Source of the DNA: Archangium lipolyticum
GTDB taxonomy: Bacteria; Myxococcota; Myxococcia; Myxococcales; Myxococcaceae
Assembly (NCBI RefSeq): GCF_024623785.1
Contig: NZ_JANKBZ010000009.1
Location: 248,001-312,000 of the forward strand
Length of the DNA stretch: 64,000 nucleotides
Direction of reading: 5' to 3'
In this document: positions 1-36,571 of the stretch, in pieces
Position numbering within the stretch: position 1 is the stretch's first letter
Layout: every line of letters begins with the position of its first letter
The notes under the pieces: generated by a model
Told to the model about the DNA's origin: nothing
Databases searched by the model: none
The model's input: the letters and a program-made list of their open reading frames with translations, nothing else
Program-made: the position numbers and the translations under genes

Positions 1-2
1 AG

Positions 3-599: not shown

Positions 600-1045
600 T
601 GGAGAAGCAACGGCCCCTGCTGCTCGTGGAGGACAGTGATCCGGACGCCGAGGCGTTGCTTCGCGTGGCCCGCAGGATGCCGCTCTCCGCGCCCGTGGTG
701 CGGGTGCAGGATGGCGAGTCCGCGCTCGACTACCTCTACCAGCGGGGGGCGTACGCGGAGGCACCCCGGCCCGTGCTGGTGCTGCTGGACCTGAACCTTC
801 CCGGCATTGGCGGCAAGGAGGTGCTCTCCCAGCTCAAGGCCGACCCGGAGCTGCGCTCCCTGCCCGTCATCATCTTCTCCAATTCCAACCTCAAGCAGGA
901 CGTGGATGGAGCCTACGCCGGGGGAGCCAACAGCTACCTCTTCAAGCCCGATGGGAGCGAGGAGATGAAGGAGGCCGCGCGAGCCCTGGAGTGTTTCTGG
1001 TTCAGCGCCGCGTTGCTGCCTGGCGCGGGGGAACCCACGGAATGA
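599..1045 (+). CDS. Rcp1-like single-domain response regulator
   Basis: A 148-residue stand-alone receiver domain with no output domain. It shows the acidic pair VEDSD near the N-terminus, the phospho-acceptor Asp in LLDLNLPGIGG, the Ser/Thr position in IIFSNSN and the conserved Lys in YLFKPDG. The C-terminal stretch with ECFWF matches the extra helix of Rcp1-family regulators that receive phosphate from phytochrome-like kinases. I chose the ATG that overlaps the upstream kinase stop (TAATG); an earlier in-frame start would lie inside the kinase gene. The end overlaps the next gene by four bases (ATGA). It probably relays the signal of the upstream kinase by protein contact or phosphotransfer. 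Confidence 0.9.
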   Translation: MEKQRPLLLVEDSDPDAEALLRVARRMPLSAPVVRVQDGESALDYLYQRGAYAEAPRPVLVLLDLNLPGIGGKEVLSQLKADPELRSLPVIIFSNSNLKQDVDGAYAGGANSYLFKPDGSEEMKEAARALECFWFSAALLPGAGEPTE

Positions 1046-2217
1046 GCCTGCGAGTGCTCCTCGTCGATGACAGCCTGGCCGATCAGAGGCTGTTGCGGCG
1101 GGCACTCGAGAAGGACACCGAGGCCCGGTGGGAGGTGGAACTGGTCAGCTCCTCCGAGAGCGCGCTGGAGCGCCTGCGCCAATCTCCGCCGGTGGACGCT
1201 CTCGTGGTGGACTATCACCTGCCGGGCATGGACGGGCTGTCCCTGCTGCGCACGCTGCGCGAGGAATATGGCCAGCGGGCGCCAGCGGCGGTGTTCTTCA
1301 CCGGCAGCGGCAGCGAGCGCGTGGCGGTGGAGGCGATGAAGTCCGGCGCCCACGACTACATCCTCAAGGAGGGTTTCACCCCGGAGCGCCTGCGCCACAG
1401 CCTCCACAACGCCGTGGAGTCGGTGCGCATGGTGCGCGAGCTGGAGGAGCGCCGCCACCAGACGGAGCGCGCGGAGCGGGCGGCGCGCGAGGCCCTCGCG
1501 GTGCGCGACGAGTTCTTCGCCATCGCCACGCACGACCTCAAGGGGCCGTTGCAGAGCATCCTCCTGAGCACGCAGTTGCTGCGCCGCCAGCTGCCCGCGG
1601 AGGTGCGCAAGGGCGGGGTGGAGGCGCGCTTCGAGCAGATATTGCGCGGCACCCAGCGGATGGGAGAGCTCATCGACCACTTCCTGGAGGTGACGCGGGG
1701 CCAGGAGCGCCCCCTGCACAGGGTGCCGGTGGACCTGCTGGGGCTGGTGCGGACGAAGATGCAGGAGCTGGGGCCGCTGGCCTCGACACATCCGGTGCAC
1801 CTGCACGTGGAGGGCACGGACTTCCTGGGCCAGTGGGACGCGGCGAGCCTGGAGCGGGTGTTGGACAACCTGCTGAGCAACGCCGTGAAGTACAGCCCGC
1901 GGGGAGGCCCCATCGACGTGGAGCTGAGCGAGGAGTCTCCGGGGCCCGACGGGTGGGTGCGGCTGCGCGTGAGGGACCGGGGGATGGGGATACCGGCGGC
2001 GGACCTGCCGCACATCTTCGAGCGCTTCCGCCGCGGGAGGAACGTGGCCCCGGCCATCTCCGGCAGCGGCGTGGGGCTGGCCAGTGCGCACCGCTTGGTG
2101 GCCCTGCACGGCGGAACCCTCTCCGTGGAGAGCCAGGAAGGCCAGGGCTCCGTCTTCATCATGCGCCTGCCACGCGGGGTGGGCGTGGAAGAGGCGCGGC
2201 CGGAACAGCCGGCCTGA
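1042..2217 (+). CDS. Hybrid response regulator-histidine kinase
   Basis: A 391-residue protein with a receiver domain first (about residues 3-120, phospho-acceptor in VVDYHLPGMDG, Lys in YILKEGF), a coiled linker rich in Glu and Arg (about 130-165), a HisKA domain (phospho-acceptor His in ATHDLKGPLQS, about residue 180) and a HATPase_c domain (N box LLSNAVKYSPRGG, G1 RDRGMGIP, G2 GSGVGLASAHRLV). It has no membrane segment, so it is cytoplasmic and its kinase is probably controlled by phosphorylation of its own receiver. The ATGA overlap with the previous gene puts all three signalling genes in one operon, perhaps a phosphorelay. Confidence 0.92.
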   Translation: MSLRVLLVDDSLADQRLLRRALEKDTEARWEVELVSSSESALERLRQSPPVDALVVDYHLPGMDGLSLLRTLREEYGQRAPAAVFFTGSGSERVAVEAMKSGAHDYILKEGFTPERLRHSLHNAVESVRMVRELEERRHQTERAERAAREALAVRDEFFAIATHDLKGPLQSILLSTQLLRRQLPAEVRKGGVEARFEQILRGTQRMGELIDHFLEVTRGQERPLHRVPVDLLGLVRTKMQELGPLASTHPVHLHVEGTDFLGQWDAASLERVLDNLLSNAVKYSPRGGPIDVELSEESPGPDGWVRLRVRDRGMGIPAADLPHIFERFRRGRNVAPAISGSGVGLASAHRLVALHGGTLSVESQEGQGSVFIMRLPRGVGVEEARPEQPA

Positions 2218-2234
2218 GACGTCCGTCCGGTGGC

Positions 2235-2263
2235 TTGACGGCTCCAGCGGCGCCCCCTTTGAT
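2235..2263 (+). promoter_or_regulatory. Candidate sigma70-type promoter before the lipoprotein toxin gene
   Basis: TTGACG (2235-2240), a 17-base spacer, then TTTGAT (2258-2263) lie in the 91-base gap between the signalling operon and the lipoprotein gene. The -35 box is a 5/6 match; the -10 box is weaker. Seen in sequence only. Confidence 0.35.
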
Positions 2264-2308
2264 GCCGGGCCTTCGCGTTCCATCCCACGCTTGCTGGGGA
2301 GATGAGGC

Positions 2309-4144
2309 ATGTCCACCCGTCGTGTTCGTCCGTGCCCGGCGGGAGCGCGGCGGCGCCACGGGTGGGACGTGCTGGCCCTGGCCGTGCTCGTGCTCCAGGT
2401 CGCGTGCGCCATGGGCGTACCTCGGGGTGCTCGGCGATGGGGTTACTCCTCCCAGCCGTTGACACCTCATGGCGTGGCGCAAGCAGTGACGTCGTGGGGG
2501 GCGCCTCCCGATTCCCGCGGTGTGGGCGGTGTGGATGGGGGCTCCAGCCGGGAGTCGCTGCGGCAGCGGGCGCGACAACGGGAGGAGGCGAGGGTGGGCG
2601 TGCTGGTGCTGGCGGCACGGCGCGAGGGCCGCGAGCCAGAAGCCGCGCGGGAGGCCGAGGTGGCCAGGATGGTGGCGCGGGTGGTGGACCTGGCCAGCGG
2701 TGTGGAGGAGGTGGGGACGGTGCTGGCCTTCACCTTCTGGGCGGAACAGGGCGCGCTGACGCTGGTGGATTACCGGGAGGATGGGGGCGGCGGGAGCGCG
2801 GCGCGGACAGGGGATGCGGCGGTGTTGGAGCGAGCGCTGCGCCACGTCTTCACCGGGTACGTGGGCCAGCGTACGGGGTTGGGGGTGCTGAGGCTGCGGC
2901 GCGAGGAGTCGCGCTGGGCGGTGGAGTACGACGCCACCCGGCAGTCGGCCCGCCCCGCCGAGGCGAAGACGCTTCCGGTTCGCACGCAAGGCACCCCGGC
3001 CCACACCTTCCTTGCCTTCCACGACCTGGCCAGGGAGCGGCTACGGGCCGTGCGGGTGCCGGCCGGGGGCACGACGCGAGTGGCGCTCGAAGTCCGGCTC
3101 GAGGACGGCCGGCTCGTCGACTGGCAACTGCGCGAGGAGGTGCGGCACTCGCGTGAGGGGATAGGAGGTAACACACGGCCGTTCTCGCCCCAGGGGACGG
3201 GGCAGCTCGTCCAGGTGCTGCTGCCTTTCACCGAGGGACTGGGCCCGCGCACGGTGCACGTGGTGCTGCGCGCCGAGTACCGGCTGGGGGAATCAGAGGC
3301 CCGGTGCCGGGTGGAGTCGGCCCGGGTGGAGCGACCCCCGGCCGTGCCGGAGCTGAGCTGGTACCGCTCCATGCACGAGGCCCTGCTGCTGCGCTGGCGC
3401 GAGGACGTGCGTGAGGGCTCGGCCTGGTTGGCGCAGAAGGGAGTGGAGGAGGCGGCCCTGTGGTTCGCGGCGGGCATTGCCGCGAAGGGCGCGGGCTTCT
3501 TCGCGACGAAGGGGCTGGAGTGGGTGCCGAGGGCACTGGGGCGCGAGCCCGAGGTTGCGGCCGGGTGGTTGCGTACGGCGCTCAAACGGCTGTCCGGGGA
3601 GGAGAAGAAAGCTCTCGAGCAGCTCTGGCGCAAGGTGGCGTTGGATGGAGAGCAGGCCCTGACACACAGCGAGCGCGAGGCGCTGCGACGCCTCTTCGTT
3701 CGACTGGAGCAGGTCATTCAGCAACCGTTGGATGACACCCTGAAAAGGGACCTGCGAAACGCAGCTCGTGACTATTACATGGAGCTGTACCCGCAGTTCG
3801 CGGATGCCCTGAGACAGCTACGAGGAAAGCTTCAAATCCATCATCGGCGTCCCATGCAGTATGCCCATCTCTTTCCCGCTGAAGACATCAATGCCGGGGA
3901 GAACCTGGCAATGGTGCGAGAGCATGTGCACAAGGAAGTCAACCTCCTGTGGGGGAGGTTTCGACAGGCCCGCCCCAGCCCTACGGCCGATGAAGTGAGG
4001 CGAGCCGCGGAGATCATCGATGGGCATTTCGAGTCCTGGTATCACCGGCCGTCGGACCCTCCAGGACTGGTGAAGACCACGGCAGATGCCAGGGACGCCG
4101 CACTGCGCGAGTTGCGGAGTCAGTTCCCTGGCTTCGACTGGTAA
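2309..4144 (+). CDS. Probable lipoprotein toxin with HNH-like C-terminal domain (SitA-like architecture)
   Basis: A 611-residue protein. The N-terminus has basic residues, a hydrophobic run (VLALAVLVLQVAC) and a Cys that fits a lipoprotein signal, although Gln at -3 is atypical. The middle region is not recognisable to me; around residues 385-405 there is a hydrophobic, Ala/Gly-rich helix. The C-terminal region carries an HNH-type pattern: I510-H511-H512, N532 and H541, in the layout of polymorphic-toxin nucleases of the xHH group. The small gene 6 bases downstream looks like a SUKH immunity protein, which supports a toxin role. Myxobacterial SitA toxins (lipoproteins delivered by outer-membrane exchange, with an immunity gene directly downstream) share this layout; that link is inference. 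Start: ATG with gagg just upstream. Confidence 0.7.
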   Translation: MSTRRVRPCPAGARRRHGWDVLALAVLVLQVACAMGVPRGARRWGYSSQPLTPHGVAQAVTSWGAPPDSRGVGGVDGGSSRESLRQRARQREEARVGVLVLAARREGREPEAAREAEVARMVARVVDLASGVEEVGTVLAFTFWAEQGALTLVDYREDGGGGSAARTGDAAVLERALRHVFTGYVGQRTGLGVLRLRREESRWAVEYDATRQSARPAEAKTLPVRTQGTPAHTFLAFHDLARERLRAVRVPAGGTTRVALEVRLEDGRLVDWQLREEVRHSREGIGGNTRPFSPQGTGQLVQVLLPFTEGLGPRTVHVVLRAEYRLGESEARCRVESARVERPPAVPELSWYRSMHEALLLRWREDVREGSAWLAQKGVEEAALWFAAGIAAKGAGFFATKGLEWVPRALGREPEVAAGWLRTALKRLSGEEKKALEQLWRKVALDGEQALTHSEREALRRLFVRLEQVIQQPLDDTLKRDLRNAARDYYMELYPQFADALRQLRGKLQIHHRRPMQYAHLFPAEDINAGENLAMVREHVHKEVNLLWGRFRQARPSPTADEVRRAAEIIDGHFESWYHRPSDPPGLVKTTADARDAALRELRSQFPGFDW

Positions 4145-4150
4145 GGAACG

Positions 4151-4816
4151 ATGGACCCCATGGACCTACCCGGGTTGGAACGGCTGTTGGACGTGTGCCA
4201 GCGGTTGAATCTGGGACTGAGGACCGGGCCGCCGGCCCGTGAGCCGTTGAAGGCTGGGAGCTTGGTGGAGGGCGTTGACTTCGATCCGGTCCTGGCGAGC
4301 GTCTATTCGCGCCTGGGACACGCGGCGTTCGCAACGGAGGTGATGTGCTGGGTGCTCACCCGCTCCGACGAGCAGGTGCATGAGCTGGCGGAGGAGAACA
4401 AGTGGTGGCGGGAAAACTGGTGGGAAGAGCTGGGTGCGCCCGTGCTGGTGTTCGGGAGTGAGATGGGACTGGCCTACACCTATGCCACCGTGCCTGGCCT
4501 CGCGGATGCGTGGGGAAGGCAGCCCGTGGTGATGGTGGATACCCACGAGCCCGAGCCCAAGGTCATTCCCGTCGCCTCGAACGTGGACCGGTTCTTCGAT
4601 AGCTACTCGCGCTATCTGGAGGCACTGGTCTCACACCCGGCTTATCGGGAGTCGGGAGAAAAGGAGCTGACCTTTCCCTGGGACGCGACCGGGATTCTCT
4701 CGCGGGATGAGCGGCTGGTGGAACTGCTACGCGCGGGGCGCTTCGACCTGTTGATGACGCATGTGGACGATTCGACACGCCGCTGGGCCGCGAAGGTGAT
4801 GGGCTCGGGGGCGTGA
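4151..4816 (+). CDS. SUKH/SMI1-KNR4-like probable immunity protein
   Basis: A 221-residue acidic cytosolic protein without signal or membrane segment. The region ELGAPVLVFGSEMGLAYTY, the following VVMVDTHEPEPK and then NVDRFFDSYSRYLEALV follow the usual order of the SMI1/KNR4 (SUKH) fold: a glycine-containing strand, a second strand with acidic residues and a closing helix that begins with an aromatic pair. SUKH proteins are widespread immunity proteins against nuclease toxins. It starts six bases after the lipoprotein gene, with aagga as ribosome site, so the two are co-transcribed. Together they form a likely toxin-immunity pair. The family call rests on motif order only. Confidence 0.65.
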   Translation: MDPMDLPGLERLLDVCQRLNLGLRTGPPAREPLKAGSLVEGVDFDPVLASVYSRLGHAAFATEVMCWVLTRSDEQVHELAEENKWWRENWWEELGAPVLVFGSEMGLAYTYATVPGLADAWGRQPVVMVDTHEPEPKVIPVASNVDRFFDSYSRYLEALVSHPAYRESGEKELTFPWDATGILSRDERLVELLRAGRFDLLMTHVDDSTRRWAAKVMGSGA

Positions 4817-4844
4817 CCGGGATGGGGCCGTCATGACCCGGTCG

Positions 4845-4866
4845 GCGGGAGCACCGAGGCTCCCGC
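4845..4866. terminator. Intergenic hairpin between convergent genes
   Basis: gcgggagc (4845-4852) pairs with gctcccgc (4859-4866) around a six-base loop, in the short gap between the convergent immunity and DUF420 genes. There is no long T-run, so termination is inferred from position and stem strength. Confidence 0.4.
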
Positions 4867-4878
4867 TTCGTCCGCCGT

Positions 4879-5445
4879 TCAGGGCACCGCGGGCAGGCTG
4901 CCGCGCAGCATGAAGAAGATGACCACGCCCGTCACGGACACGTAGAGCCAGATGGGCGCCAGCCACCGCGTCACCTTCCGGTGCTTCGCGAAGGCGTTGC
5001 GCCAGGCGAAGTAGAAGGCCAGCAGCGCGCCCGGCACCACGAACAGCGACAGCAGCACGTGGCTGGCCAGGATGAGCAGGTACACCGTCCTCATCATCCC
5101 GGTCCCAGCGTAGCGCGTGTCTCCGTGCACGAAGTGGTACGCCAGGTAGCACACCAGGAAGAGCGCCGAGGACGCGAACGCGGACACCATGAGGTACTGG
5201 TGCACCCGCCGTGCTCCCCGGCGGATGGCCACCCAGCCCGCGGCCAGGAATGTCGCCGCCAGCGCGTTGAAGCTCGCGTTCACCGCCGGCAGGAAGCGCA
5301 GATCCACCCCCTCCACCGGTCCTCCCCGGCGGATGAGGAGGATGTACGCGAGGAAGGCCAGCGCCGCGGCGGACACCACCGCGGTGAAGATGAAGAAGTT
5401 GCGATCGCTCACCCGGGTGAGCGGAGCGTGGGCGGCATCAGACAT
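4879..5445 (-). CDS. DUF420 membrane protein (CtaM/YozB-like)
   Basis: A 188-residue protein with five hydrophobic segments, at about residues 17-38, 57-77, 85-108, 122-148 and 158-180. The conserved polar residues fit DUF420: an Asn-containing second segment (PAVNASFNALAA), HQYLM before helix three, AYHF and SHVLL. In Bacillus and Staphylococcus the DUF420 protein CtaM is needed for active heme A-type oxidase, so a role in cytochrome oxidase maturation is possible here, but no oxidase genes are adjacent. I chose the second ATG because it follows an AAAGGTG site at good spacing; the earlier in-frame ATG has none. It is transcribed away from the five-gene exported-protein operon. Confidence 0.8.
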   Translation of the reverse strand: MSDAAHAPLTRVSDRNFFIFTAVVSAAALAFLAYILLIRRGGPVEGVDLRFLPAVNASFNALAATFLAAGWVAIRRGARRVHQYLMVSAFASSALFLVCYLAYHFVHGDTRYAGTGMMRTVYLLILASHVLLSLFVVPGALLAFYFAWRNAFAKHRKVTRWLAPIWLYVSVTGVVIFFMLRGSLPAVP

Positions 5446-5513
5446 GGCACACCTTTCTGTCCTGCTTGTGCCTTGCATGCAACCGGCGCCTCACCCAGGA
5501 CGTTTTTCTCATT

Positions 5514-5543
5514 TTGTTTCACTCTGAGTAGTGTGGGCATATA
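5514..5543 (+). promoter_or_regulatory. Candidate promoter of the exported-protein operon
   Basis: In a 167-base divergent gap that is clearly AT-richer than its surroundings, TTGTTT (5514-5519), an 18-base spacer and CATATA (5538-5543) could serve as -35 and -10 boxes. A 10-base palindrome, ttgcatgcaa (5473-5482), lies upstream and could be an operator for either gene. Confidence 0.35.
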
Positions 5544-5612
5544 GCAATTAAGTTGAATTCCTGGCATAAGTGGCGCCGTCGTTTCCCCCCGCTGCGCCCC
5601 CCGGAGGTTCCC

Positions 5613-7640
5613 GTGCGATTCGCACGCTGCTTCCTCGCTCCCCTGGTAACCACCGCCCTGATGGGCGCCACCGCCGCCCTGGCGGATGGTCCGGTGTGTG
5701 CCCCGGTGTCGAAGGTTCCCCTCGAGCGCCACCTGCGCCAACTCTCCCTGGATCTGCTCGGCCGTCCACCCACCTATGAGGAGTACAAGGCCGCCCAGGC
5801 CAAGGGTGAGGTGACGGTCGAGGATGTCCGTGCCCTCATGCAGAAGGAGGAGTTCTACTCCCGCATCCGCGCCTACCACCGCGCGCTGCTGTGGAGCAAC
5901 GTGAGCTCCAGCGTCAACAACAACGGCAACTCGCGCCTGTCCGGCGCGGGCTCCGCCACGGACGCGTACTCCCTGCGCGGCAACAGCAGCCGCCAGTTGC
6001 GCGGCGCCAACGGCCAGGGCTGTGACAGCTTCATCCCCCAGGACTCGTGCAACAGCCCGCGGCAGGATCCGCATGCCGAGCCCACCGCCGCCAAGACGTG
6101 CTACGACACGCGCGGCGTCCCGCTGCCGGTGAGCTGGGACTACGACACCACCTACTACCGCTGCGACCGGTTGGATCAGAACCCCACCGACGCCACCATC
6201 ACCTCGTGTGAGCTGGCGGTGTCCAAGGGGCGCATCCCCGCCAAGTACCTCTACTTCTGCGACATGCGGCGCCAGTCCAACGGCACGCTGCTGCCGCACC
6301 TGTGCCTGCCGGATCCGACGAAGACCAACGCGGCCGCGCTCTCGGAAGAGGTGCTGGCCACGGACGGCTCGGGCCGGGTGGTCGGCTTCAAGCACCCCAA
6401 TCCCACGTCCTCCACGCCGCTGACGCGGCTCGACCGGTGCTCGCTGGAGCTCGGCGAGAGGAAGGACAACCGGGGCTTCCCCATCAACGGTGCCTACCAG
6501 CCGCAGAATGGCTGCATCCAGCGCGAGGGCTACGTGACCCGGCCCGCGCCCTTCTGGAGCACCACGGGGGCCGAGGTGCGGGTGTGCGCCATCGAGGCGC
6601 AGACGCGTGTGTCCAACCCGTGGACGATGGAGTCCTGCACCACCACGCGCTTCAACAACGATCGCAGCTGCGGCTGTGGTGATCGAATGGAGCGCTGCGA
6701 GGTGGCCGACAACACCGTCAACGTCCACAGGCTGCGCGTGGATGCCATCAACGCCGAGCCCGAGCTCATCGCCGACTCGGTGGTGCGCCGCGACGAGCCC
6801 TACTTCAACATCCTCACCACGCCGCGCTCGTTCCTCAACGGCCCGCTCTCCGAGCTCTACCGCAGCCCGCAGCAGGGCCTGGGCGTGTTGAGCATCAGCC
6901 CGCCGGCGGACGCCACGGCGCTGCCCGTGGTGCCCTTCGCGGAGACGGCCACCTGGAAGGAGTACGTGCGCGAGTCCGAGCACTCGGGAGTGCTCACCAC
7001 GCCTTCCTTCCTCTACCGCTTCCCCACCCAGCGCGCCCGCGTCAACCAGTTCTACGCGGCCTTCCTGTGCAAGTCGTTCGCCCCGCCGGACAACGCGCGC
7101 CAGCCGGCCGCCGAGGACGCGTGCAACCGGGAGAACAACCTGGCCAAGCGCTGCGGCTGCAACTACTGCCACGCCACCATCGAGCCCACCGGCGCCCACT
7201 GGGGCCGCTACGCCGAGCGCGGCGCCCTCTTCCTGGATCCCTCCCACTTCCCCCGGTTCGATCCCAAGTGCCGCGACTGCGCGCTCTCGGGCAACACCAC
7301 CTGCAACAACGAGTGCGGCCAGTACGTGATGCAGGCCTACGACGGCGACGGCGCCAGCTCGCTGGGCATGCTCAAGACGTACCTCTACCGCACCGCGGAC
7401 GAGGAGCAGAACATCGAAGGCGGCCCGCAGCTGCTGGTGCAGCGCATGATGCAGACGGGCGAGCTGGAGCGCTGCACGGTGCGGCGCGTCTGGCAGGAGT
7501 TCCTCGGCCGGCCCATGTCCGCCGAGGAGAAGCGCCTCTACCTGGAGCCGCTCGCCGAGGATTTCGCGCGAGACGGCCACCGCTTCAAGGCGCTCATCGA
7601 GCGTCTGGTGATGACCGACGCCTACCGGAGGATCGACTGA
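5613..7640 (+). CDS. Secreted Cys-rich DUF1549-like protein with a c-type heme motif
   Basis: A 675-residue exported protein. I chose the GTG at 5613 because ccggagg stands five bases before it and the product then begins with a clean signal peptide ending ALA-DG. Residues about 40-80 (LRQLSLDLLGRPPTYEEYK and the following helix) resemble DUF1549 of Planctomycete-type cytochromes. A single CxxCH heme motif (CNYCH) sits in the C-terminal third, followed by PTGAHWG, as in DUF1588-like heme modules. The protein is unusually rich in cysteine for this genome (well over 25, many in pairs), which suggests many disulfides outside the cytoplasm. First gene of a five-gene operon; its stop overlaps the next start (TGATG). 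Substrate unknown. Confidence 0.7.
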   Translation: MRFARCFLAPLVTTALMGATAALADGPVCAPVSKVPLERHLRQLSLDLLGRPPTYEEYKAAQAKGEVTVEDVRALMQKEEFYSRIRAYHRALLWSNVSSSVNNNGNSRLSGAGSATDAYSLRGNSSRQLRGANGQGCDSFIPQDSCNSPRQDPHAEPTAAKTCYDTRGVPLPVSWDYDTTYYRCDRLDQNPTDATITSCELAVSKGRIPAKYLYFCDMRRQSNGTLLPHLCLPDPTKTNAAALSEEVLATDGSGRVVGFKHPNPTSSTPLTRLDRCSLELGERKDNRGFPINGAYQPQNGCIQREGYVTRPAPFWSTTGAEVRVCAIEAQTRVSNPWTMESCTTTRFNNDRSCGCGDRMERCEVADNTVNVHRLRVDAINAEPELIADSVVRRDEPYFNILTTPRSFLNGPLSELYRSPQQGLGVLSISPPADATALPVVPFAETATWKEYVRESEHSGVLTTPSFLYRFPTQRARVNQFYAAFLCKSFAPPDNARQPAAEDACNRENNLAKRCGCNYCHATIEPTGAHWGRYAERGALFLDPSHFPRFDPKCRDCALSGNTTCNNECGQYVMQAYDGDGASSLGMLKTYLYRTADEEQNIEGGPQLLVQRMMQTGELERCTVRRVWQEFLGRPMSAEEKRLYLEPLAEDFARDGHRFKALIERLVMTDAYRRID

Positions 7641-8299
7641 TGCGCCGCCTGCTCATGCTCGCGCTCGTCGCGCTCGGCGCCGCCGCGTGCGAGAAGACCC
7701 CGTCCACTCCTCCCCCGGAGGAGGGACAGATGCAGCCCGTCATCAACCCGCACGCGTCGTCGGTGACGCCGCTGCCGGACCCGGAGCTGCAGGACGGCCG
7801 GGTGGGGCGCTCGCCGCGCCGCATCACCGTCAACCAGCTCGCCCGCTCCATCGAGGTGGCCGTGGGCCGGCCGTGGACCGGGCTCGAGGGCGTGGCCACC
7901 TCGCTGGGACGGCCGGACTACGCGCTCATCAACCAGGAGAGCACCGAGCCCAACCTCGTCTTCGCCAAGTTCCTCGAGGACGGGGCCCGCGAGGTGTGTC
8001 TGGCCCAGGCGGCGGCCGAGGTGAAGCTGACCGACCCGGCGCAGCGCGTGCTCAGCCGCACCCTGCCCACGGGGGCGGTGAGCGACCTGCGCAAGCTGTC
8101 GGACACCCAGGTGCGTGACATGCTCGGCTACCTGTCCACCCGCTTCTGGGGTGCGCCGCTGCAGGGCGAGGAGCTGACGCGCTGGGCGGGTTTCTTCACC
8201 CAGGCGGCCACGCGCGCCGAGACCATCCAGAAGCGAGACCAGGCGCTGGCGGCGGTGTGCATCGCGCTGATGACGGACTCGCGCTTCCTCACCTACTGA
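7640..8299 (+). CDS. Lipoprotein of the DUF1549/DUF1501-type operon
   Basis: A 219-residue lipoprotein: MRRLLMLALVALGAAAC is a classical signal with lipobox GAAAC, followed by a Pro-rich linker to about residue 40. The mature part contains RRITVNQLARSIEVAVGRPW, similar in style to the start of DUF1592-type domains (RRLT-x-x-E/Q-hydrophobic), and ends with IALMTDSRFLTY, a closing seen in the same group of proteins. No heme motif is present. Its ATG overlaps the stop of the Cys-rich gene and the DUF1501 gene follows after 20 bases, so it is co-expressed with both. A scaffold or partner role at the membrane is inferred; no reaction can be named. Confidence 0.65.
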   Translation: MRRLLMLALVALGAAACEKTPSTPPPEEGQMQPVINPHASSVTPLPDPELQDGRVGRSPRRITVNQLARSIEVAVGRPWTGLEGVATSLGRPDYALINQESTEPNLVFAKFLEDGAREVCLAQAAAEVKLTDPAQRVLSRTLPTGAVSDLRKLSDTQVRDMLGYLSTRFWGAPLQGEELTRWAGFFTQAATRAETIQKRDQALAAVCIALMTDSRFLTY

Positions 8300-8319
8300 C
8301 GGCACGGGGAGATGCATCC

Positions 8320-9711
8320 ATGAAGAAGAACCCAGAGACCTCTACCGGCCGCCGGACCTTCCTGAAGGCCGCCGCCGGCTTCATGGGCGCCACCGTGTTC
8401 GGTGGCCTGCCCTTCCGCGCCTTCGCCCAGGCCTCCGCCCTGGCGCCCGCGGACCGCTGCTTCGTCTTCGTCTACTTCTCGGGAGGGTGGGATCAGCTGC
8501 TCGCCTTCGACCCGAGGGATCCGACGATCTTCACCGTGGACAGGATCGCCGAGACGCGCATCCAGCCGGGCTACGACCTGTTCACCGACGCGCGCTTCCC
8601 GAACCGGCCCGTCGTGCCGCCCACGCGCTCGGGCGCGGCGCCTTCCAAGATCACCTTCGGTCCGGCGGTGGGCGACAGGCTGGCCGCGCACTACGACCTG
8701 ATGGCGGTGGTGCGGGGCATCAACATGACCACGCTGGCGCATGAAGAGGGCATGCGCTACTTCATCACCGGAAAGCGTCCCATCGGGGCCGCGGCGCGCG
8801 GCTCGTCCACGGCCACCGAGGTCGTGGGGCAGATGATGCCCCGGGTGCCCATCCCCTCCATCGCATACAACGTCGAGACGTACAACGACACCTACCCGGG
8901 CACGGCCAACGCGCTCAAGGTGAGCCAGGCGAAGGATCTGCTGCTCACGCTGGCGGCCAGCCCGCGGCAGCTCGACAGCGAGCTGGAGAAGCAGCTGGTG
9001 GACTTCCGCGGCCAGCCCATCAGCTGCGAGGAGGCGGCGTACGGCGCGGGAGGCGTGGGCGCCACGTACGGCACGAGCCGCGACCAGATGCGGCAGGTGC
9101 TGTCGGGCCGGCTGGACAACGCGTTCCGCTTCGAGCTGGCGGAGAACGCGGAGGTGCGCTCCTTCTACGGGCTGCCAGCCTCGGGCCCCTACGACAACGC
9201 GGCGGGCCGCGCGGCGCTGGTGGCCACGGCGCTCAAGAAGGGCATCAGCCAGTGCGTGTCCATCAATCTGGCCGGTGGCCTGGACACGCACTTCGGCACG
9301 CAGACGACGCACGCCATCAACCAGCGCACGGGCTTCGACGCGCTGGGCGCGTTGGTGGATGATCTGCGGAGGACGGCGCACCCGGCGGGTGGCAACTTCA
9401 TGGACCACACCACCATCCTGGTGTTCTCCGAGTTCGCCCGCACCCCGGTCATCAACTCCACGAGCGGGCGCGACCACCACCAGACGAACAGCTGCCTGCT
9501 GATGGGCGCCGGGCTGAAGCACAACCTGACGTTCGGCAGGAGCGGTGACATCAACATGGCGCCGGCCGTGCTGGACCTGAACACGGGTGAGTCGGACCCG
9601 AACAACGGGACGAACATCCTCCCCGAGCACATCATCGCGACGGTGCTGGCGTCGGCCAAACTGGACTACAGCATCACGCGCGTCGAACCCCTCAAAGCCC
9701 TGTTGGCGTAA
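8320..9711 (+). CDS. Tat-exported DUF1501 protein
   Basis: A 463-residue protein beginning with a textbook twin-arginine signal (GRRTFLKAAAGFMGATVFG, cleavage near AFAQA). The mature part follows the DUF1501 family: FVFVYFSGGWDQLLAFDPR near residue 45, an AHEEGMRYF region, then LAGGLDTHFGTQTTH, VFSEFARTPVINSTSGRDHHQTNS and a C-terminal GEPSD-like segment. DUF1501 proteins belong to the alkaline phosphatase-like superfamily and are usually next to DUF1549/DUF1553 or cytochrome genes, as here. Tat export implies folding, probably with metal, before secretion. Start chosen at the ATG after ggggaga. The stop overlaps the next start by one base. Confidence 0.88.
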   Translation: MKKNPETSTGRRTFLKAAAGFMGATVFGGLPFRAFAQASALAPADRCFVFVYFSGGWDQLLAFDPRDPTIFTVDRIAETRIQPGYDLFTDARFPNRPVVPPTRSGAAPSKITFGPAVGDRLAAHYDLMAVVRGINMTTLAHEEGMRYFITGKRPIGAAARGSSTATEVVGQMMPRVPIPSIAYNVETYNDTYPGTANALKVSQAKDLLLTLAASPRQLDSELEKQLVDFRGQPISCEEAAYGAGGVGATYGTSRDQMRQVLSGRLDNAFRFELAENAEVRSFYGLPASGPYDNAAGRAALVATALKKGISQCVSINLAGGLDTHFGTQTTHAINQRTGFDALGALVDDLRRTAHPAGGNFMDHTTILVFSEFARTPVINSTSGRDHHQTNSCLLMGAGLKHNLTFGRSGDINMAPAVLDLNTGESDPNNGTNILPEHIIATVLASAKLDYSITRVEPLKALLA

Positions 9712-11258
9712 TGAACACTCGAGCTTCGTACCGTGTCGGCGCCCTCTCCCCCTGGGAGAGGGTTGGGGTGAGGGTCTACCCCTTCCTGCTCGCGGGCCTG
9801 ATGGCGGCCTGCAACTCGCTCCCCCAGGACAAACCCAAGCCGGAGGCCTTCCAGCCCGCGCAGGTGAAGGCGCAGGCGGAGGTGGCGCCCTCGTCGGCTT
9901 TCGCGGACCAGACGGGAGGAGGCGTCTTCGTGACGACGGCGGGCGAGCTCGTCCGCCTGCGGCTGGACGGGACGAAGGCTCCGTTGGAGAACCACCCGGG
10001 CAACCCGGTGACGCCGGGGCGTGGTCGCTCCGTCTTCCGGATGGGGCCGGGCTCGGCGCTGGTGGAGACGGACAACGGCCTCTTCCTGGCGCAGGCGGGG
10101 TGGATCATCGCCCCGCCCTGGAGGGCCGCGCTGAGCGTGGGGATGAGCGCCTCGGTGGTGACGCCGGATGGCTCGGCGTGGCTCGCGCATGCCTCGGGCC
10201 TCTTCCAACTGCGTGACGGCGCGCTGTCCCAGCTCAAGGTGGACGGCCAGCCGCTGGTGGGCATCAGCTCGCTGGTGGTGGCGCCGGCCGAGGGCGTGTC
10301 CCCGGCCCTGTGGTTCATCCGCGAGGAGAAGCTGTGGAACGCCATCCAGACGGCGGCGGGGACGTGGCAGGTGCGCCAGGCCCAGGTGCCGCTGAACAAG
10401 GAAGAGGCCGTCGTGGGGCTGGCGGGGCTGGGAGAGTCGGAGAAGGGGGCGGCGGAGGTGTGGCTGCTGACGTCGGAGCGGCTGCTGCGCAACGCGGCGG
10501 ACGGGTGGCGGGAGGTGGCGCTGGAGGAGCCGCCGGAGCAGGTGGTGGCCGCGGGGCGCTTCGTCTGGGTGAAGACGGCCGATGGGCTCTTCCTCCATGA
10601 CGCGGACAAGGGCACGTGGGGCCAGGCCTCGGGCGTGGACACGGGCAACCTGCGCCTGCTGACGGCGGACGAGAGTGGCTGCGTCTGGGCGAAGGTGGGC
10701 GCCGACACGGTGGCGTTCAGCCGGGGCCCGGTGCCGCGCGTGCTGGGCCTGCACGAGGGCATGCGGGTGGTGGAGGACTCGCTGGTGGTGCGCGCGCGCG
10801 TGGCGCCGGGCGATGCGCCGGAGAGCGTCACCTTCCAGGTCGCGGGCATGGACTTGCCGGTGAGCGGGCCGGCCTTCAGCCTCGGCGGGGTGGAGGCGGA
10901 CGGGACGCCCAAGCCCTTCTCCTTCGATGGGCTGGCGCCGGGCGTGCACACGCTGAGCGCCGTGGCGCGCTACGCGAATGGCACCGAGGCCCGCCGCGCC
11001 GTCTCCTTCTCCTACCAGCCCGTCTCCACGTCGGTGCTCAGCTGGGAGAAGGACATCCGCCCCATCCACGTGGCGCGGTGCGCGAGCTGCCACACCTCGG
11101 GTCCCGGCCGGCAGCTGTCCACGTATCAGCTGTGGAAGGACAACGCGGCCCTCATCGTCGCGGCGGTGCGGGATCAGCGCATGCCCGCTGACGGTCCGTT
11201 GGATCCTCAGCTCATCTCCATCATCCAGCGCTGGGCGACTGCTGGCGCCAACCCCTGA
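9711..11258 (+). CDS. Lipoprotein with beta-propeller-like body and C-terminal cytochrome c domain
   Basis: A 515-residue lipoprotein. The hydrophobic run and lipobox (YPFLLAGLMAAC, Cys34) are preceded by an odd n-region encoded by a dispersed palindromic repeat (see the repeat at 9742). ATG 9711 overlaps the previous stop; GTG 9768 inside the repeat is an alternative start. Residues about 60-340 contain repeated segments of the kind GxFVWVKTADGLFLHD and GSAWLAHASGLFQLRDG, resembling propeller blades. The C-terminus has a class I heme motif, CASCH, with a likely axial Met in QRMPADG. It may pass electrons to or from the CNYCH protein of the same operon; that is inference. Confidence 0.75.
   Translation: MNTRASYRVGALSPWERVGVRVYPFLLAGLMAACNSLPQDKPKPEAFQPAQVKAQAEVAPSSAFADQTGGGVFVTTAGELVRLRLDGTKAPLENHPGNPVTPGRGRSVFRMGPGSALVETDNGLFLAQAGWIIAPPWRAALSVGMSASVVTPDGSAWLAHASGLFQLRDGALSQLKVDGQPLVGISSLVVAPAEGVSPALWFIREEKLWNAIQTAAGTWQVRQAQVPLNKEEAVVGLAGLGESEKGAAEVWLLTSERLLRNAADGWREVALEEPPEQVVAAGRFVWVKTADGLFLHDADKGTWGQASGVDTGNLRLLTADESGCVWAKVGADTVAFSRGPVPRVLGLHEGMRVVEDSLVVRARVAPGDAPESVTFQVAGMDLPVSGPAFSLGGVEADGTPKPFSFDGLAPGVHTLSAVARYANGTEARRAVSFSYQPVSTSVLSWEKDIRPIHVARCASCHTSGPGRQLSTYQLWKDNAALIVAAVRDQRMPADGPLDPQLISIIQRWATAGANP
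9742..9775 (+). repeat. Palindromic repeat, copy A (inside a coding region)
   Basis: ccctctccc and gggagaggg form the hairpin, followed by the tail ttggggtgagggt. The same unit occurs three more times in the window. Here it is read in frame as LSPWERVGVRV in the n-region of a lipoprotein signal. Confidence 0.85.
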
Positions 11259-11269
11259 GGCATTCCTCC

Positions 11270-14200
11270 ATGAATCGAATCTTCCGCGCGTCGCTCGCGT
11301 TCGCGCTCCTGGGCGCGGCCTGCAACCCGGAGGAGGAGCTGCCCGAGCTGCCTCCCTCGGTGAATCCCTGCGCGGGGCTGCCGCCCCTCACCCTCACCGC
11401 GAGCCCGGACCGGGTGCACGTGAAGAATCCCGTCACCCTGACGGCCACGGGAGGCACCGGCTACTACAGCTTCCGCGTGGAGGCCGGGGGCTCGTCGGGA
11501 GAGATGCGCGGGTCGCGCTTCATCGCCGGCTCCACGCCCGCGACGGACACGCTGGTGGTGGAGGACGCCCGCTGCCCGGGTGATGCGCGGGCGCAGGTGA
11601 CCGTGGTGACGGGCTTCGACGTGGCGCCCGGACGGGCCACGGTGAAGCCGGGCACCACCTTCCAGGTGCAGGTGTCGGGGCAGCTGGGGACGCCCATCTT
11701 CACGCTGGAGCGCAACGCGGCGGGCAACAGCACGCTGTCGGATACGGGTGTGTACAAGGCGGGCACGGGGCAGGGCGTGGACCTGGTGCGCGTGCGGGAT
11801 GGACGCACGGGCGAGGAGGCCGTCCTTCAGTTCGAGGTGCGCGCGGACGCGCAGCTGCGCGGAGACCCGGCGCTGATGGCGGTGCCGGCGGGCTCGTCGG
11901 CGCCGCTGGGCTCGGTGGGCGGCAGTGATCGGGTGACGTGGACGAAGGTGTCCGGTCCGGGCACTCTGGCCAACGGCTCCTTCTCGGCCGAGCCCGATGC
12001 GAAGGGCCTGGCGGTGCTGGAGGTGGCGGATCCCTTCACCGGACAGAAGGCGCGCGTGTCCGTGCGCATCCTGGACGAGCTGAAGCGCGACACCCGGGCG
12101 CACGGGCGGCTCACGGACATCGTCTCGGTGGTGACCGCGGACTTCGATGGAGACGGCATTCCGGACGTGGCGGTGGGGCAGGCGGAGAGCGACCTGGCCA
12201 GGCCCCAGGGCGGCGCGGTGTTCATCTTCAAGGGGAGCCCGGCGGGACTGCCCGACAAGCCCACGTGGACCCTGACGGGCGAGACGCGCACGGCCCGCTT
12301 CGGCGAGACGGTGGTGGCCGGGGACCTGGACAAGGACGGCAGGGCGGAGCTGGCGGTGTCGTCGCCGGGCGCGGACTTCACCGCGGATGACGCGGGCGCG
12401 GTGTACCTGTACCGCTTCGGCGCGAATGGGCCGGAGCTCCTCCGGGCGCCGCTCGCGGGCGTGGGACGGAGCGGCTCCTTCGGCGCGGGTCTGGCGCTCG
12501 CGGACGCGGACGGGGACGGGGACGTGGACCTGGTGGTGGGCTCGCCCACGGGCGACCTGACGGGCTCGGTGACGCTGAAACGGGGCGTGGTGGACATCTT
12601 CCTGCTCACCCCGGGCGAGGCGGTGTCGGATCTGCCGACCATCCGTCTGGGTGGACTGGACCTGGGCAAGACGGGGGCCGTCGAGTCCCGGGGTGGCACG
12701 GAGCTGGGTCGCGTGCTGAAGGTCGCCGACCTCAACGGGGACGGGCTGCCGGACGTGGCGGCGCTGAGCAAGGTGACGCGTCTCAAGGAAGATGGCACCA
12801 CCGACATGGGGCAGCAGGCCGTGTCCGTGTACCTCGCGCGCTCCTCGGGGACGCGGTTCCGCGAGTCGCCGGACGTGTACGTGCTGCCCGCGAACATCGC
12901 CAATCTCAAAGACGACGAGGGCCTCTGGAAGCTGGACGTCGTGCCGGGCGAGGGGACGCGGCCCGCGCTGCTGATGGCGCTGGCGGATCGTGCCGACTCG
13001 CCGGACCTGAAGGCCAGCGGTGGCCAGGGCGCCATGACCGACGCGGGCGGAGCGCTGCTCTTCGATGTGAGCGCGTACAAGCCCACGGGCGAGCCCGCGG
13101 CCACGCCGGCGCAGGTGAAGCGCGACGCGGCCTGGGCCCGGCTGTATGGCGACGCGGGCAGCATCCTGGCGGGGCGGAGCTGGGCGGTGCTGGACGTGGA
13201 CGGCAAGCCCGGTCCGGAGCTGCTGCTGGGCGCGCCCCACGCGAGCCCTCCGGCCCCGGGGAACACGACGCTGCGCCTCGGTGGCAAGGTGCTCGTCTAC
13301 CCGCTGGCGGACCTGAGCCGCGGCGCCGTGCTCAACAAGTCGCTCTCCTTCCTCCCGGGACAGGCGAAGTCGGATGTCTTCGGCGCGGGGCTCGCGGCGT
13401 GGCCGCTGCCGGGGAGCGCCGGGCTGGTGGCCTTCGCGGCTCGCGCCTCCGCGCCCGGGCTGGCCTTCACCGGACGGGTGGATGCCTTCGTCAAGGCGGG
13501 CGACTCGCTCGCGCAGTGGACGCGCACGTCCGCCATGGCGCCGGCGCGGCCGAGCGTGGAGCTCTTCGGTGAGAAGGTGGCGGTGGCCAGGGGCGTGACG
13601 GGCGCGGTGGCGCTGGTGGGCTCGCCGGGCTTCTCCGGTTCGGGCGGCGCCAACGCGGATGGCTACGAGCCGTCCATCGGCCGCGCCTGGTCCTTCAGCC
13701 AGGACGGCAAGGCCTCGCTCGCGGGCGAGGGGAGCTTCTCGTCGCTCGTCGCGGGGCGCAACGTGGGCACGGACGTGGCCTTCACGGACTTCAACGGTGA
13801 TGGGCGTCAGGACGTGGTGATCGGCGCGCCGGGTTTGTTCGTTCCGGGGACCGCCTCGAAGGCCACGGACATCACCCCGGTGTACCACCTGGAGCGCCCC
13901 GAGTGCCTTCCCGCCACGAACCAGCAGCTCGGCGGCGTGCTGGTGTCGCTGGGCCAGGCGGATGGGAGCTTCAAGCCCGCCTACCGGTTGTGGGCGCCGG
14001 GAACCATCGAGGGGTGCACGGCCGTGGGCAACACCAACAACTGCAAGCGCCAGAGCATGGGGCGCGGAGTGTTGGGCGGCTTCGACTTCAACGGGGACGG
14101 CAAGCAGGACATCGCGATGCTGCGCACCAACGGCATCGACATCCTCCTGGGCCGCGCTCCGGATGACGTCTCGCTGACGAAGCTGACCATGGGGTGCGAT

Positions 14201-15022
14201 CCGATCTACACCGCGCCCACGCTGATCCTCCCGGGCAATCCCGGACAGCCGCCCTCGCTCGTGCAGCAGACGTCGGCACCGGCGGCGCTGGGTGACCTGA
14301 ACGCGGATGGCTGCGACGAGGTGGCGTGGCGCTACACGGACGGCGGCCAGCGCGGTGGCGTGGTGGTGGCGTTCGGTTACGACCCGAACGGGGTGAAGTG
14401 TGGGACGCGCAAGGTCCCGTCGACGGTGCGGCTGGCCGCGGACTCGGAAGTGGGCATGACCTTCATCAGCCTGGGCGTGGCGACGGCGCGCGCGGGCCGC
14501 GTGCTGGGCAAGACCGGCCCGGACTACCTGGCGGTGAGCGCGGCGAACGTGACGTACAACGGAGTCACGCAGCCCGCGGTGCTGCTGTTCGACATCGCGC
14601 AGCTGGTGAGCCGCCGGCCGGCCTCGGGTGAGGTGGTGGTGGGCGCCATGGACAGCGCGCTGATTCCCAAGGTGCTGGTGCACCGCTCGCGGGCGGTGGG
14701 CTTCGGGACGTCGCTGGCGGGTGGGGTGGATCTGACGGGCGACGGCGCGCCAGAGCTGGTGGTGGGCGCACCGGGCGCGTCGGTGGCCTCGGACGGTGGC
14801 GGCGCGGTGTTCGTCTACGCGGGCGGGCCCACGACCACGGGCGCGGTCTCGCCGCTGCTCACGCTGACGGGCGACGTGACGGAGCGCTCCAACTTCGGGA
14901 GCGATCTGGCCCTGGTGGCGGGGAGTGGAAGCATGCCGCCCACCCTCGTCGTCGGCGCGCCGCTCAGCTACCGCACGGGCACGGAGAACGGCACGGCCTA
15001 CCTGGTGACGCTCGGCTTCTAG
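11270..15022 (+). CDS. FG-GAP/VCBS repeat lipoprotein
   Basis: A 1250-residue lipoprotein; the signal ends in the lipobox LGAAC (Cys18). Residues about 35-280 contain Ig-like or bacterial adhesion-type beta domains (SPDRVHVKNPVTLTATGGTG and two further units). From about residue 285 onward the chain is a string of FG-GAP repeats with Ca-binding loops: DFDGDGIPDVAVG, DLDKDGRAELAVS, DADGDGDVDLVVG, DLNGDGLPDVAAL, DFNGDGRQDVVIG, DFNGDGKQDIAML, DLNADGCDEVAWR and DLTGDGAPELVVG. Such repeats build integrin-alpha-like propellers that bind partners at the cell surface. It starts 11 bases after the cytochrome lipoprotein and closes the operon. The stop lies six bases from the convergent CBS gene with no room for a terminator. 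Confidence 0.88.
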   Translation: MNRIFRASLAFALLGAACNPEEELPELPPSVNPCAGLPPLTLTASPDRVHVKNPVTLTATGGTGYYSFRVEAGGSSGEMRGSRFIAGSTPATDTLVVEDARCPGDARAQVTVVTGFDVAPGRATVKPGTTFQVQVSGQLGTPIFTLERNAAGNSTLSDTGVYKAGTGQGVDLVRVRDGRTGEEAVLQFEVRADAQLRGDPALMAVPAGSSAPLGSVGGSDRVTWTKVSGPGTLANGSFSAEPDAKGLAVLEVADPFTGQKARVSVRILDELKRDTRAHGRLTDIVSVVTADFDGDGIPDVAVGQAESDLARPQGGAVFIFKGSPAGLPDKPTWTLTGETRTARFGETVVAGDLDKDGRAELAVSSPGADFTADDAGAVYLYRFGANGPELLRAPLAGVGRSGSFGAGLALADADGDGDVDLVVGSPTGDLTGSVTLKRGVVDIFLLTPGEAVSDLPTIRLGGLDLGKTGAVESRGGTELGRVLKVADLNGDGLPDVAALSKVTRLKEDGTTDMGQQAVSVYLARSSGTRFRESPDVYVLPANIANLKDDEGLWKLDVVPGEGTRPALLMALADRADSPDLKASGGQGAMTDAGGALLFDVSAYKPTGEPAATPAQVKRDAAWARLYGDAGSILAGRSWAVLDVDGKPGPELLLGAPHASPPAPGNTTLRLGGKVLVYPLADLSRGAVLNKSLSFLPGQAKSDVFGAGLAAWPLPGSAGLVAFAARASAPGLAFTGRVDAFVKAGDSLAQWTRTSAMAPARPSVELFGEKVAVARGVTGAVALVGSPGFSGSGGANADGYEPSIGRAWSFSQDGKASLAGEGSFSSLVAGRNVGTDVAFTDFNGDGRQDVVIGAPGLFVPGTASKATDITPVYHLERPECLPATNQQLGGVLVSLGQADGSFKPAYRLWAPGTIEGCTAVGNTNNCKRQSMGRGVLGGFDFNGDGKQDIAMLRTNGIDILLGRAPDDVSLTKLTMGCDPIYTAPTLILPGNPGQPPSLVQQTSAPAALGDLNADGCDEVAWRYTDGGQRGGVVVAFGYDPNGVKCGTRKVPSTVRLAADSEVGMTFISLGVATARAGRVLGKTGPDYLAVSAANVTYNGVTQPAVLLFDIAQLVSRRPASGEVVVGAMDSALIPKVLVHRSRAVGFGTSLAGGVDLTGDGAPELVVGAPGASVASDGGGAVFVYAGGPTTTGAVSPLLTLTGDVTERSNFGSDLALVAGSGSMPPTLVVGAPLSYRTGTENGTAYLVTLGF

Positions 15023-15028
15023 CGGCCC

Positions 15029-15463
15029 TCAGTGCGCCAGGGACACGGGTGGCTCGGAGATTCCCTCGAGCACCCGCCCGGCGAGCGTCTGGTCCTCCAT
15101 CTCCATGGCCAGGTCCCCCAGGGAGACGATGCCGACGAGGCGCTCGTGCTCGTCCACGACGAGCAACCGGCGCACCTGGAGCTCGCGCATCTGATGGGCG
15201 ACGTCCTCGACGTCGTCGTCCACGGAGCACGTCTGCACGTTGCGCGTCATCACGTCCGCGACGGAGGCGCTCTGGGGGTTGAAGCCCAGGGCGAGGCCTC
15301 GCACGACGATGTCGCGGTCGGTGATGATGCCGACGACGCGCTCGCCGTCCATGACGGGGAGTGAGCCCACGTTGAGCAGGCGCATCATCTCGGCGGCGCC
15401 CATCAGGGTCGTCTCCGGGTGGGCGGCGACGGCGTCCGGAGTCATCACGTCACGAATCTTCAT
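15029..15463 (-). CDS. CBS-domain pair protein
   Basis: A 144-residue cytosolic protein made only of two CBS domains. The first begins IRDVMTPDAVAAHPETTL and contains GSLPVMDGERVVGIITDRD; the second begins VADVMTRNVQTCSVDD and contains VRRLLVVDEHERLVGIVSLGDLA. Stand-alone CBS pairs bind adenine nucleotides and often act as stress or energy sensors. The start at ATG 15463 follows GGAGGTG at good spacing; any earlier start would add a Pro-rich tail unlike the family. Its target is unknown and the neighbours do not suggest one. Confidence 0.9.
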   Translation of the reverse strand: MKIRDVMTPDAVAAHPETTLMGAAEMMRLLNVGSLPVMDGERVVGIITDRDIVVRGLALGFNPQSASVADVMTRNVQTCSVDDDVEDVAHQMRELQVRRLLVVDEHERLVGIVSLGDLAMEMEDQTLAGRVLEGISEPPVSLAH

Positions 15464-15603
15464 GGCGCACCTCCAGGCTGCGGGTTGGGGTTCATTGGAG
15501 GGAGGGTGTGTCCGCTCCGGCGGGGATGCCGCGCATTCCCTTCCGCGCTCCGCCAGGCCGCCCGCCCGTCCCACGGGGGAGGGCCCGTCCTGTCCCCGAG
15601 GAC

Positions 15604-15947: not shown

Positions 15948-15982
15948 CCCCTCTCCCTCTGGGAGAGGGACGGGGTGAGGGT
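15948..15982 (+). repeat. Palindromic repeat, copy B
   Basis: ccctctccc-tct-gggagaggg makes a 9-bp stem with a three-base loop, followed by acggggtgagggta. It begins 12 bases after the PQ-loop gene stop, where it may also act as a terminator or mRNA-stabilising hairpin. Confidence 0.85.
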
Positions 15983-36536: not shown

Positions 36537-36571
36537 ACCCTCACCCTAGCCCTCTCCCAGAGGGAGAGGGG
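36537..36571 (-). repeat. Palindromic repeat, copy D (right half of an inverted pair)
   Basis: The reverse complement of the unit: accctcaccctag followed by ccctctccc-aga-gggagaggg. With copy C it makes a structure like the paired REP elements (BIME/REPIN) of other bacteria, between two GT-C genes. Confidence 0.85.

Follow-up and report, generated by a model that had tools for sequence, protein, structure and literature searches.

We found that a 64,000-nucleotide stretch of Archangium lipolyticum DNA (hereafter, the window) carries, at positions 5613 to 15022, a five-gene operon. It represents a form of the PSCyt/PSD-DUF1501 kind found in Myxococcota, in which the heme parts reside on different proteins and an FG-GAP lipoprotein has joined the set. 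The five genes, designated P1 to P5, probably serve one functional complex or pathway. As an overall explanation, we favor an operon for an envelope-anchored complex that modifies or cleaves a polymer in a redox-coupled manner, a reading to which we give a little less than an even chance. Because this PSCyt/PSD relative occurs as a split five-gene operon that is conserved through the Myxococcaceae, its function could be made testable by deletion, and this family includes genetically tractable species. In addition, a putative exchange of the catalytic nucleophile for His in P3 offers a specific residue to probe.

5613..7640, + strand: P1, an exported, Cys-rich protein of 675 amino acids with 26 Cys (AlphaFold predicted local distance difference test score, pLDDT, 89.0), comprising a DUF1549/PSCyt2-like N-terminus, a central CGCG...C motif, a CxxCH at residue 516 and a DUF1585/PSD2-like C-terminus
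7640..8299, + strand: P2, a lipoprotein of 219 amino acids with lipobox Cys17 and a weak DUF1595/PSD5 match
8320..9711, + strand: P3, a DUF1501 protein of the twin-arginine translocation (Tat) type with a predicted alkaline-phosphatase-superfamily fold
9711..11258, + strand: P4, a lipoprotein with lipobox Cys34, internal repeats spanning approximately residues 60-330 and, at its C-terminus, a c-heme domain (C457-x-x-C460-H461, M491)
11270..15022, + strand: P5, a lipoprotein of 1250 amino acids with lipobox Cys18, FG-GAP repeats and seven strict DxDxDG/DxNxDG loops

Organization and conservation of the operon

The original prediction, which was made from the DNA sequence, gave these coordinates and open reading frames correctly. 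P1 starts with a GTG codon at position 5613, and GGAGG is present at positions 5603-5607. P1 and P2 overlap by one base, as do P3 and P4, while gaps of 20 and 11 bases lie between P2 and P3 and between P4 and P5, respectively, in agreement with the claim that the genes overlap or lie within 20 bases of one another. The claim that all five products are exported by Sec, Tat or lipoprotein routes was supported by the lipoboxes of P2, P4 and P5, the twin Arg of P3 and an N-terminal hydrophobic segment in P1, all of which were read by eye rather than by a signal-peptide program. No PHROGs family was found up to an E value of 0.01, and the NCBIfam matches were limited to P1 and P5 and were all below the cut-off.

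For the Myxococcaceae, 60 loci were fetched from 59 genomes, including that of the window. All five genes were present in the same order and on one strand in 54 of the 60 loci, and the remaining six loci were cut by contig ends. Co-occurrence across relatives was the check that the original prediction had called for, and a failure of the genes to co-occur was not borne out. P1 and P2 overlapped in 56 of 59 loci, and the P2/P3 gap was 11-21 bases (59 loci); the median gaps were 7 bases for P3/P4 (58 loci; maximum, 208) and 31.5 bases for P4/P5 (54 loci). Among 117 genomes of the order, P2 had a match in 61 and P1 in 62. Within the Myxococcaceae, 60 genomes showed a match, which was only distant in one of them (G111), and at least eight showed none. 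The ratios of nonsynonymous to synonymous substitution rates (dN/dS), rough values from NG86 on GC-rich genes, lay at 0.26-0.53 in the comparison with the nearest relative and at 0.36-0.72 with a more distant one (L067).

Across the phylum, a P1 alignment composed mostly of distant proteins revealed a match at E ≤ 1e-10 in 96 of 195 genomes. The contigs of named genomes were also scanned, which yielded 117 relatives; the 80 best entered the analysis as 79 loci, nearly all of which are labeled as Myxococcota or as delta-/proteobacterial metagenome-assembled genomes (MAGs); Polyangium, Minicystis, Sandaracinaceae, Kofleriaceae, Archangium, Hyalangium and Corallococcus are among the taxa. By inspection, we classed 12 of these loci as Myxococcaceae orthologues and the other 67 as distant; related loci are not independent samples. 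Eight of the 12 orthologues had enough flanking sequence, and P2 to P5 were found in all eight. The distant loci were testable in 48 of the 67 cases, with at least 1.8 kb upstream and at least 2.5 kb downstream. As evident from these loci, P2 and P3 lie beside P1 in 48 of 48 and P4 is found in 39 of 48 when either strand is counted; in some of the distant loci, such as those of Polyangium, P4 is divergent. The orders P4-P1-P2-P3 and P4-P2-P3-P1 were both observed, and since the orders vary while the genes stay together, the association outlives rearrangement.

Of the 67 distant loci, 11 also had an FG-GAP frame in the flanking sequence that was fetched; it adjoined P4 or P3 in 10 and lay approximately 2.4 kb away in L192. 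Where 6.5 kb or more was available on each side of a distant locus, 5 of 29 had such a frame. In the 12.6-Mb genome of the window, scoring 150 of 227 candidates gave 35 matches and at least 11 FG-GAP frames, and with so few frames the adjacency looks well above chance with kinship allowed for; the chance level was gauged from this one genome, and other genomes may have more frames. The gene content of these loci shows P1, P2 and P3 to be the core of the set, with P4 as a usual member and P5 as a recurrent add-on and variable part.

Two records stood out by their labels. A MAG labeled Rhodobacterales (L175) contains P4, P1, P2 and P3 together with an FG-GAP gene, which could reflect mis-binning or transfer, and a record labeled Comamonas sp. 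KCTC 72670 (L209) contains the full Myxococcaceae operon and is probably a mislabeled genome.

The genome of the window contains two further sets (L132 on C19 and L133 on C1), in each of which a P1-like protein with CxxCH is accompanied by a lipoprotein and a Tat DUF1501 protein. In these paralogous sets, the lipoprotein has a CxxCH near its start, which is followed by a C-terminus that matches the P2 profile (E = 7.4e-10). One DUF1800 gene lies beside a DUF1501 match on C6 (L130), and a PSD1/PSCyt2-like gene without CxxCH lies beside a DUF1501 gene on C5.

Upon comparison with the PSCyt/PSD families (PF07583, PF07587, PF07624, PF07627, PF07631 and PF07637), we found the operon to be similar in the order of the P1 segments, which run from a PSCyt2-like start through a PSCyt3-like CxxCH to a PSD2-like end, in the weak PSD5-like segment of P2 and in the adjacent Tat DUF1501 gene. 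In contrast, all P1 and P2 matches fall under the Pfam cut-offs, the parts are divided between P1 and P2, the heme lipoprotein P4 is a protein of its own, P1 has the CGCG...C motif and many Cys, and the FG-GAP lipoprotein has been added in the Myxococcaceae. The DUF1800-DUF1501 pairs (PMC5122149) likewise place a Tat DUF1501 protein beside an uncharacterized partner gene; however, the partner in the present operon is heme-bearing and P1-like, and the excerpt of that paper considered here describes no counterpart of P2, P4 or P5. The same excerpt reports DUF1501/DUF1800 genes beside bacterial chitin synthases. In excerpts of other papers, PSCyt genes are described near sulfatases, sometimes with carbohydrate-binding modules, and their function is called unknown (PMC5615132); PSD1 and PSC2 are each counted 41 times in Rhodopirellula baltica, where a redox role is suggested (PMC2754498); and the function of DUF1501 is called unknown, with a 2012 study by Kamneva et al. 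cited for DUF1501 clusters (PMC4452313). Among the titles and abstract openings listed in a search covering few subscription journals, we found no functional study of DUF1501, DUF1549/1553/1592/1588/1585/PSCyt, DUF1800 or DUF1552.

Sequence and predicted structure of the five proteins

The Pfam matches of P1 to PSD2, PSCyt2, PSD1, PSD4 and PSCyt3 were all sub-threshold, with 24.7 bits against a cut-off of 25.8 for PSD2, 23.2 against 29.8 for PSCyt2 and 17 against 27 for PSCyt3. In a wider P1 alignment of 58 sequences, consisting of the window and 57 of 79 hits, matches at E ≤ 0.01 were found to PSCyt2 in 53, to PSD2 in 38 and to PSCyt3 in two. These profiles point to P1 as a relative of the planctomycete PSCyt/PSD cytochromes that lies below the membership cut-off; the DUF1549-like label in the original prediction caught a real relationship, although the score remains under the Pfam threshold. 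The c-heme motif (C516, C519 and H520) and C137, C325 and C568 were invariant in all 58 wider homologues, and near-invariant positions were C342, C353, C355, C362 and C553 (57 of 58), H89 (56) and H457 (55). Among 58 Myxococcaceae sequences, 23 of the 26 Cys were conserved at ≥97%. A comparison of the P1 model with 88 PDB chains gave none above a Z-score of 4.3. Phycobilisome linker domains gave weak P1 profile matches (E 0.16 and up), and the same family was reached via the P1 model (Z = 4.3), which hints at a resemblance over approximately residues 36-94 and 595-675, with limits set by eye. Single-sequence searches of the PDB with P1, P3 and P4 returned nothing up to an E value of 1. In P2, the Pfam match to PSD5 was weak (E = 0.0088), and Cys120 and Cys207 were invariant in 27 of 27 aligned sequences.

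P3 matched DUF1501 (PF07394) with 88.2 bits against a cut-off of 27, and a DUF1501 match at E ≤ 0.01 was found in each of the 63 aligned sequences (the window and 62 of 71 hits). The twin Arg (R11 and R12) was present in all 63 in an alignment whose start choice favored RR; the Pfam TAT_signal family matched only three of the 63, and the Tat call is a motif read by eye rather than the output of a Tat predictor. The P3 model (pLDDT 88.5) showed a Z-score of 20.4 and a root mean square deviation (rmsd) of 3.1 over 242 aligned residues with a nucleotide pyrophosphatase/phosphodiesterase (7mw8_C), and Z-scores of 17 to 20 with nucleotide pyrophosphatases, PafA and sulfatases. P3 is thus predicted to adopt, over most of its length, the fold of the alkaline phosphatase superfamily, which includes nucleotide pyrophosphatases/phosphodiesterases, PafA and S1 sulfatases.

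Within P3, D58, H141, D322, H324, R374, R384, D385 and H386 were invariant in all 63 sequences, and E371 was conserved in 58 of the 63. Position 371, which is Glu or Asp, is followed by Phe rather than His. The Asp and His residues appear to follow the strands in an order similar to that of the superfamily, and the order of strands and helices suggests D58, D322/H324, E371 and H386 as metal ligands. H141, which opens helix 141-150 in the model, would take the place of the Ser/Thr/Cys nucleophile, a placement made by secondary-structure order and not by residue-level superposition. H141 was also aligned in L131, L132, L133 and L134, and it was not aligned in L130, where the choice of frame is uncertain. 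Comparing the P3 profile with phosphodiesterases and sulfatases from relatives gave no match, a poor test in which 10 of 13 and 1 of 13 proteins, respectively, passed the filter and some of the frames may be incorrect. Eight weak matches of the P3 profile in the PDB (E 0.036 and up; designed, coiled and unrelated proteins) were discarded.

Because the top solved neighbors of the P3 model are nucleotide pyrophosphatases/phosphodiesterases, alkaline phosphatases and sulfatases, the operon could also be read as a surface hydrolase module in which P3 acts as a conventional metal-dependent enzyme of the phosphodiesterase or sulfatase-like type, and the heme domains have no more than a structural or vestigial role. 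We consider this quite unlikely: an invariant His appears at the assigned nucleophile position, Phe rather than His follows E371, and the CxxCH of P1 is invariant in 58 of 58 aligned sequences, which is unlike a vestige.

P4 showed a weak Pfam match to Cytochrome_CBB3 (E = 0.023). Its internal repeats were detected at E = 6.4e-10, with a unit of approximately 42 residues as read from an 84-column offset, and these repeats, as distinct from a solved or predicted fold, would fit a propeller. The original prediction had described P4 as a propeller-cytochrome lipoprotein; the lipobox and the CxxCH were confirmed, and the propeller is a reading of the repeats. A C-terminal CxxCH was present in 51 of 59 P4 hits, and C457, C460, H461 and M491 were found in all 21 aligned sequences, which comprise the window and 20 of the 59 hits, all 20 chosen from the motif-bearing ones. 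With one CxxCH each, P1 and P4 are likely heme proteins, and the set contains two c-heme attachment motifs. Di-heme enzymes of the MXAN_0977/MauG type, which we take to have two CxxCH in one protein, were rejected as a model for P1 and P4, and no NCBIfam match to that model was found at E ≤ 0.1. The name MXAN_0977_Heme2 occurs in an excerpt of PMC11495043.

P5 matched FG-GAP (PF01839) with 145.8 bits against a cut-off of 22.1 in eight stretches, and it resembled the integrin alpha propeller (E = 5e-11) and had the calcium-loop motifs. The claim of a 1250-residue integrin-like lipoprotein held. P5 differs from the integrin alpha propellers in being a lipid-anchored bacterial protein with an N-terminus that is Ig-like by eye. 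As P5 is the largest product and the set has three lipoproteins, the operon might instead serve adhesion or matrix assembly, with the propellers of P5 and P4 binding a ligand and the other proteins acting as assembly factors. This reading is very unlikely, as the FG-GAP protein is the part most often missing in the distant sets (present in 5 of 29) and so does not belong to the core.

Possible function of the operon

The predicted coherent exported redox set was supported by the conserved gene order, the phylum-wide co-occurrence, the two c-heme motifs and the CxxCH fused to a P2-like C-terminus in the paralogues. In the mechanism that we favor, P3 would fold with its metal in the cytoplasm, which fits its Tat export, and would serve as the active site. 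P1, a presumably disulfide-braced protein with a single heme, may dock with P3 and hand electrons on to P4, whose heme would have His/Met ligands. The lipid tails of P2 and P4 would anchor the complex, and P5, as a Ca2+-loop FG-GAP propeller protein, may be its outer scaffold or an arm that binds ligands. Such a complex would most likely modify or cleave a polymer, such as a glycan or matrix, at the cell envelope or surface in a redox-coupled manner. That P3 is a redox-coupled enzyme is a tentative proposal, somewhat more apt to fail than to hold, and a polymer or glycan substrate is more doubtful still. That P3, and DUF1501 proteins at large, are alkaline-phosphatase-fold redox metalloenzymes in which His replaces the hydrolytic nucleophile and the single c-hemes of P1 and P4 bring or remove the electrons, which would place a heme-coupled enzyme for an envelope polymer in a superfamily known for hydrolysis, seems improbable.

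Several observations weigh against the favored mechanism. We found no heme-stain, redox or enzyme data for it, and the distal heme ligand of P1 is not evident. P4 was not recognized in 9 of the 48 testable distant loci, and 8 of the 59 P4 hits lack a C-terminal CxxCH (six have none, one of these being partial, and two have it near the N-terminus). The heme region of P4 matched the fused heme region of the paralogous lipoproteins weakly (E = 0.014 over 25 columns), which we did not accept as proof of homology. Foldseek gave modest results for P3, with 20 matches at E ≤ 0.001 and TM-scores of approximately 0.2-0.4, which leaves the fold assignment dependent on the second aligner. No carbohydrate-binding, glycoside-hydrolase or sulfatase family was found in the five proteins in Pfam or NCBIfam at E ≤ 0.1, and the links to polymers come only from excerpts of two papers on other bacteria (PMC5122149, PMC5615132). 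Finally, the orthologous operon occurs once per genome and, in nearly all Myxococcaceae loci, has one and the same divergent gene as its neighbor. This single-copy status applies to the close orthologue only, as several Myxococcaceae genomes hold two to four P1-matching places (distant copies). The fixed place leans towards a core envelope role for the orthologous operon rather than accessory scavenging. The degradation machine of the original prediction was not shown, and the missing binding and hydrolase families and a single, fixed location, unlike that of an accessory catabolic locus, speak against it.

The divergent gene is a conserved neighbor of P1 that lies outside the operon:

4879..5478, - strand: a DUF420 membrane protein gene

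It adjoins P1 in 56 of 60 loci, and we take DUF420 to be linked to cytochrome oxidase. Together with an orthologous operon that is present once and in a constant position in 59 of 68 same-family genomes seen, this neighbor is consistent with an envelope-biogenesis or respiratory accessory unit, in which the hemes and P3 would mature an outer-membrane or extracytoplasmic redox component rather than turn over a polymer. However, the genes beyond DUF420 in three of five relatives' loci resemble heme oxygenase, phytochrome and response-regulator genes and not oxidase genes, no constant respiratory neighbor was seen in 12 distant loci (both by eye), and distant copies also occur in several family genomes and in the genome of the window. 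We regard this alternative as unlikely and retain redox-coupled polymer modification or cleavage as the favored reading.

Flanking region and repeats

The DUF420 gene and the operon possibly share a promoter region. A sigma-70 scan of positions 4800-15600 found no promoter-like sites, and five terminator-like sites were found against 2.6 expected, none of them downstream of P5. The coding region for the P4 signal peptide contains an in-frame repeat:

9744..9774, + strand: a repetitive extragenic palindromic (REP)-like repeat

Three copies of this repeat occur, at 9744-9774 (+), 15951-15981 (+) and 36538-36568 (-), against a shuffle mean of 0.00. Its translation is absent from the P4 orthologue of Archangium violaceum (L208) and is visible at the start of P4 in the nearest relative (L066).

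Upstream, at window positions 2309-4816, genes for proteins of 611 and 221 amino acids resemble a polymorphic nuclease toxin/immunity pair by eye. This pair gave no Pfam family up to E = 0.1 and no match in the 70 fetched loci besides the window itself. In L088, L067 and L097, positions of approximately 1-4250 hold heme-oxygenase-like, phytochrome-like and response-regulator-like genes beyond the DUF420 gene (by eye), and the toxin-like pair occupies the place of these genes in the window.

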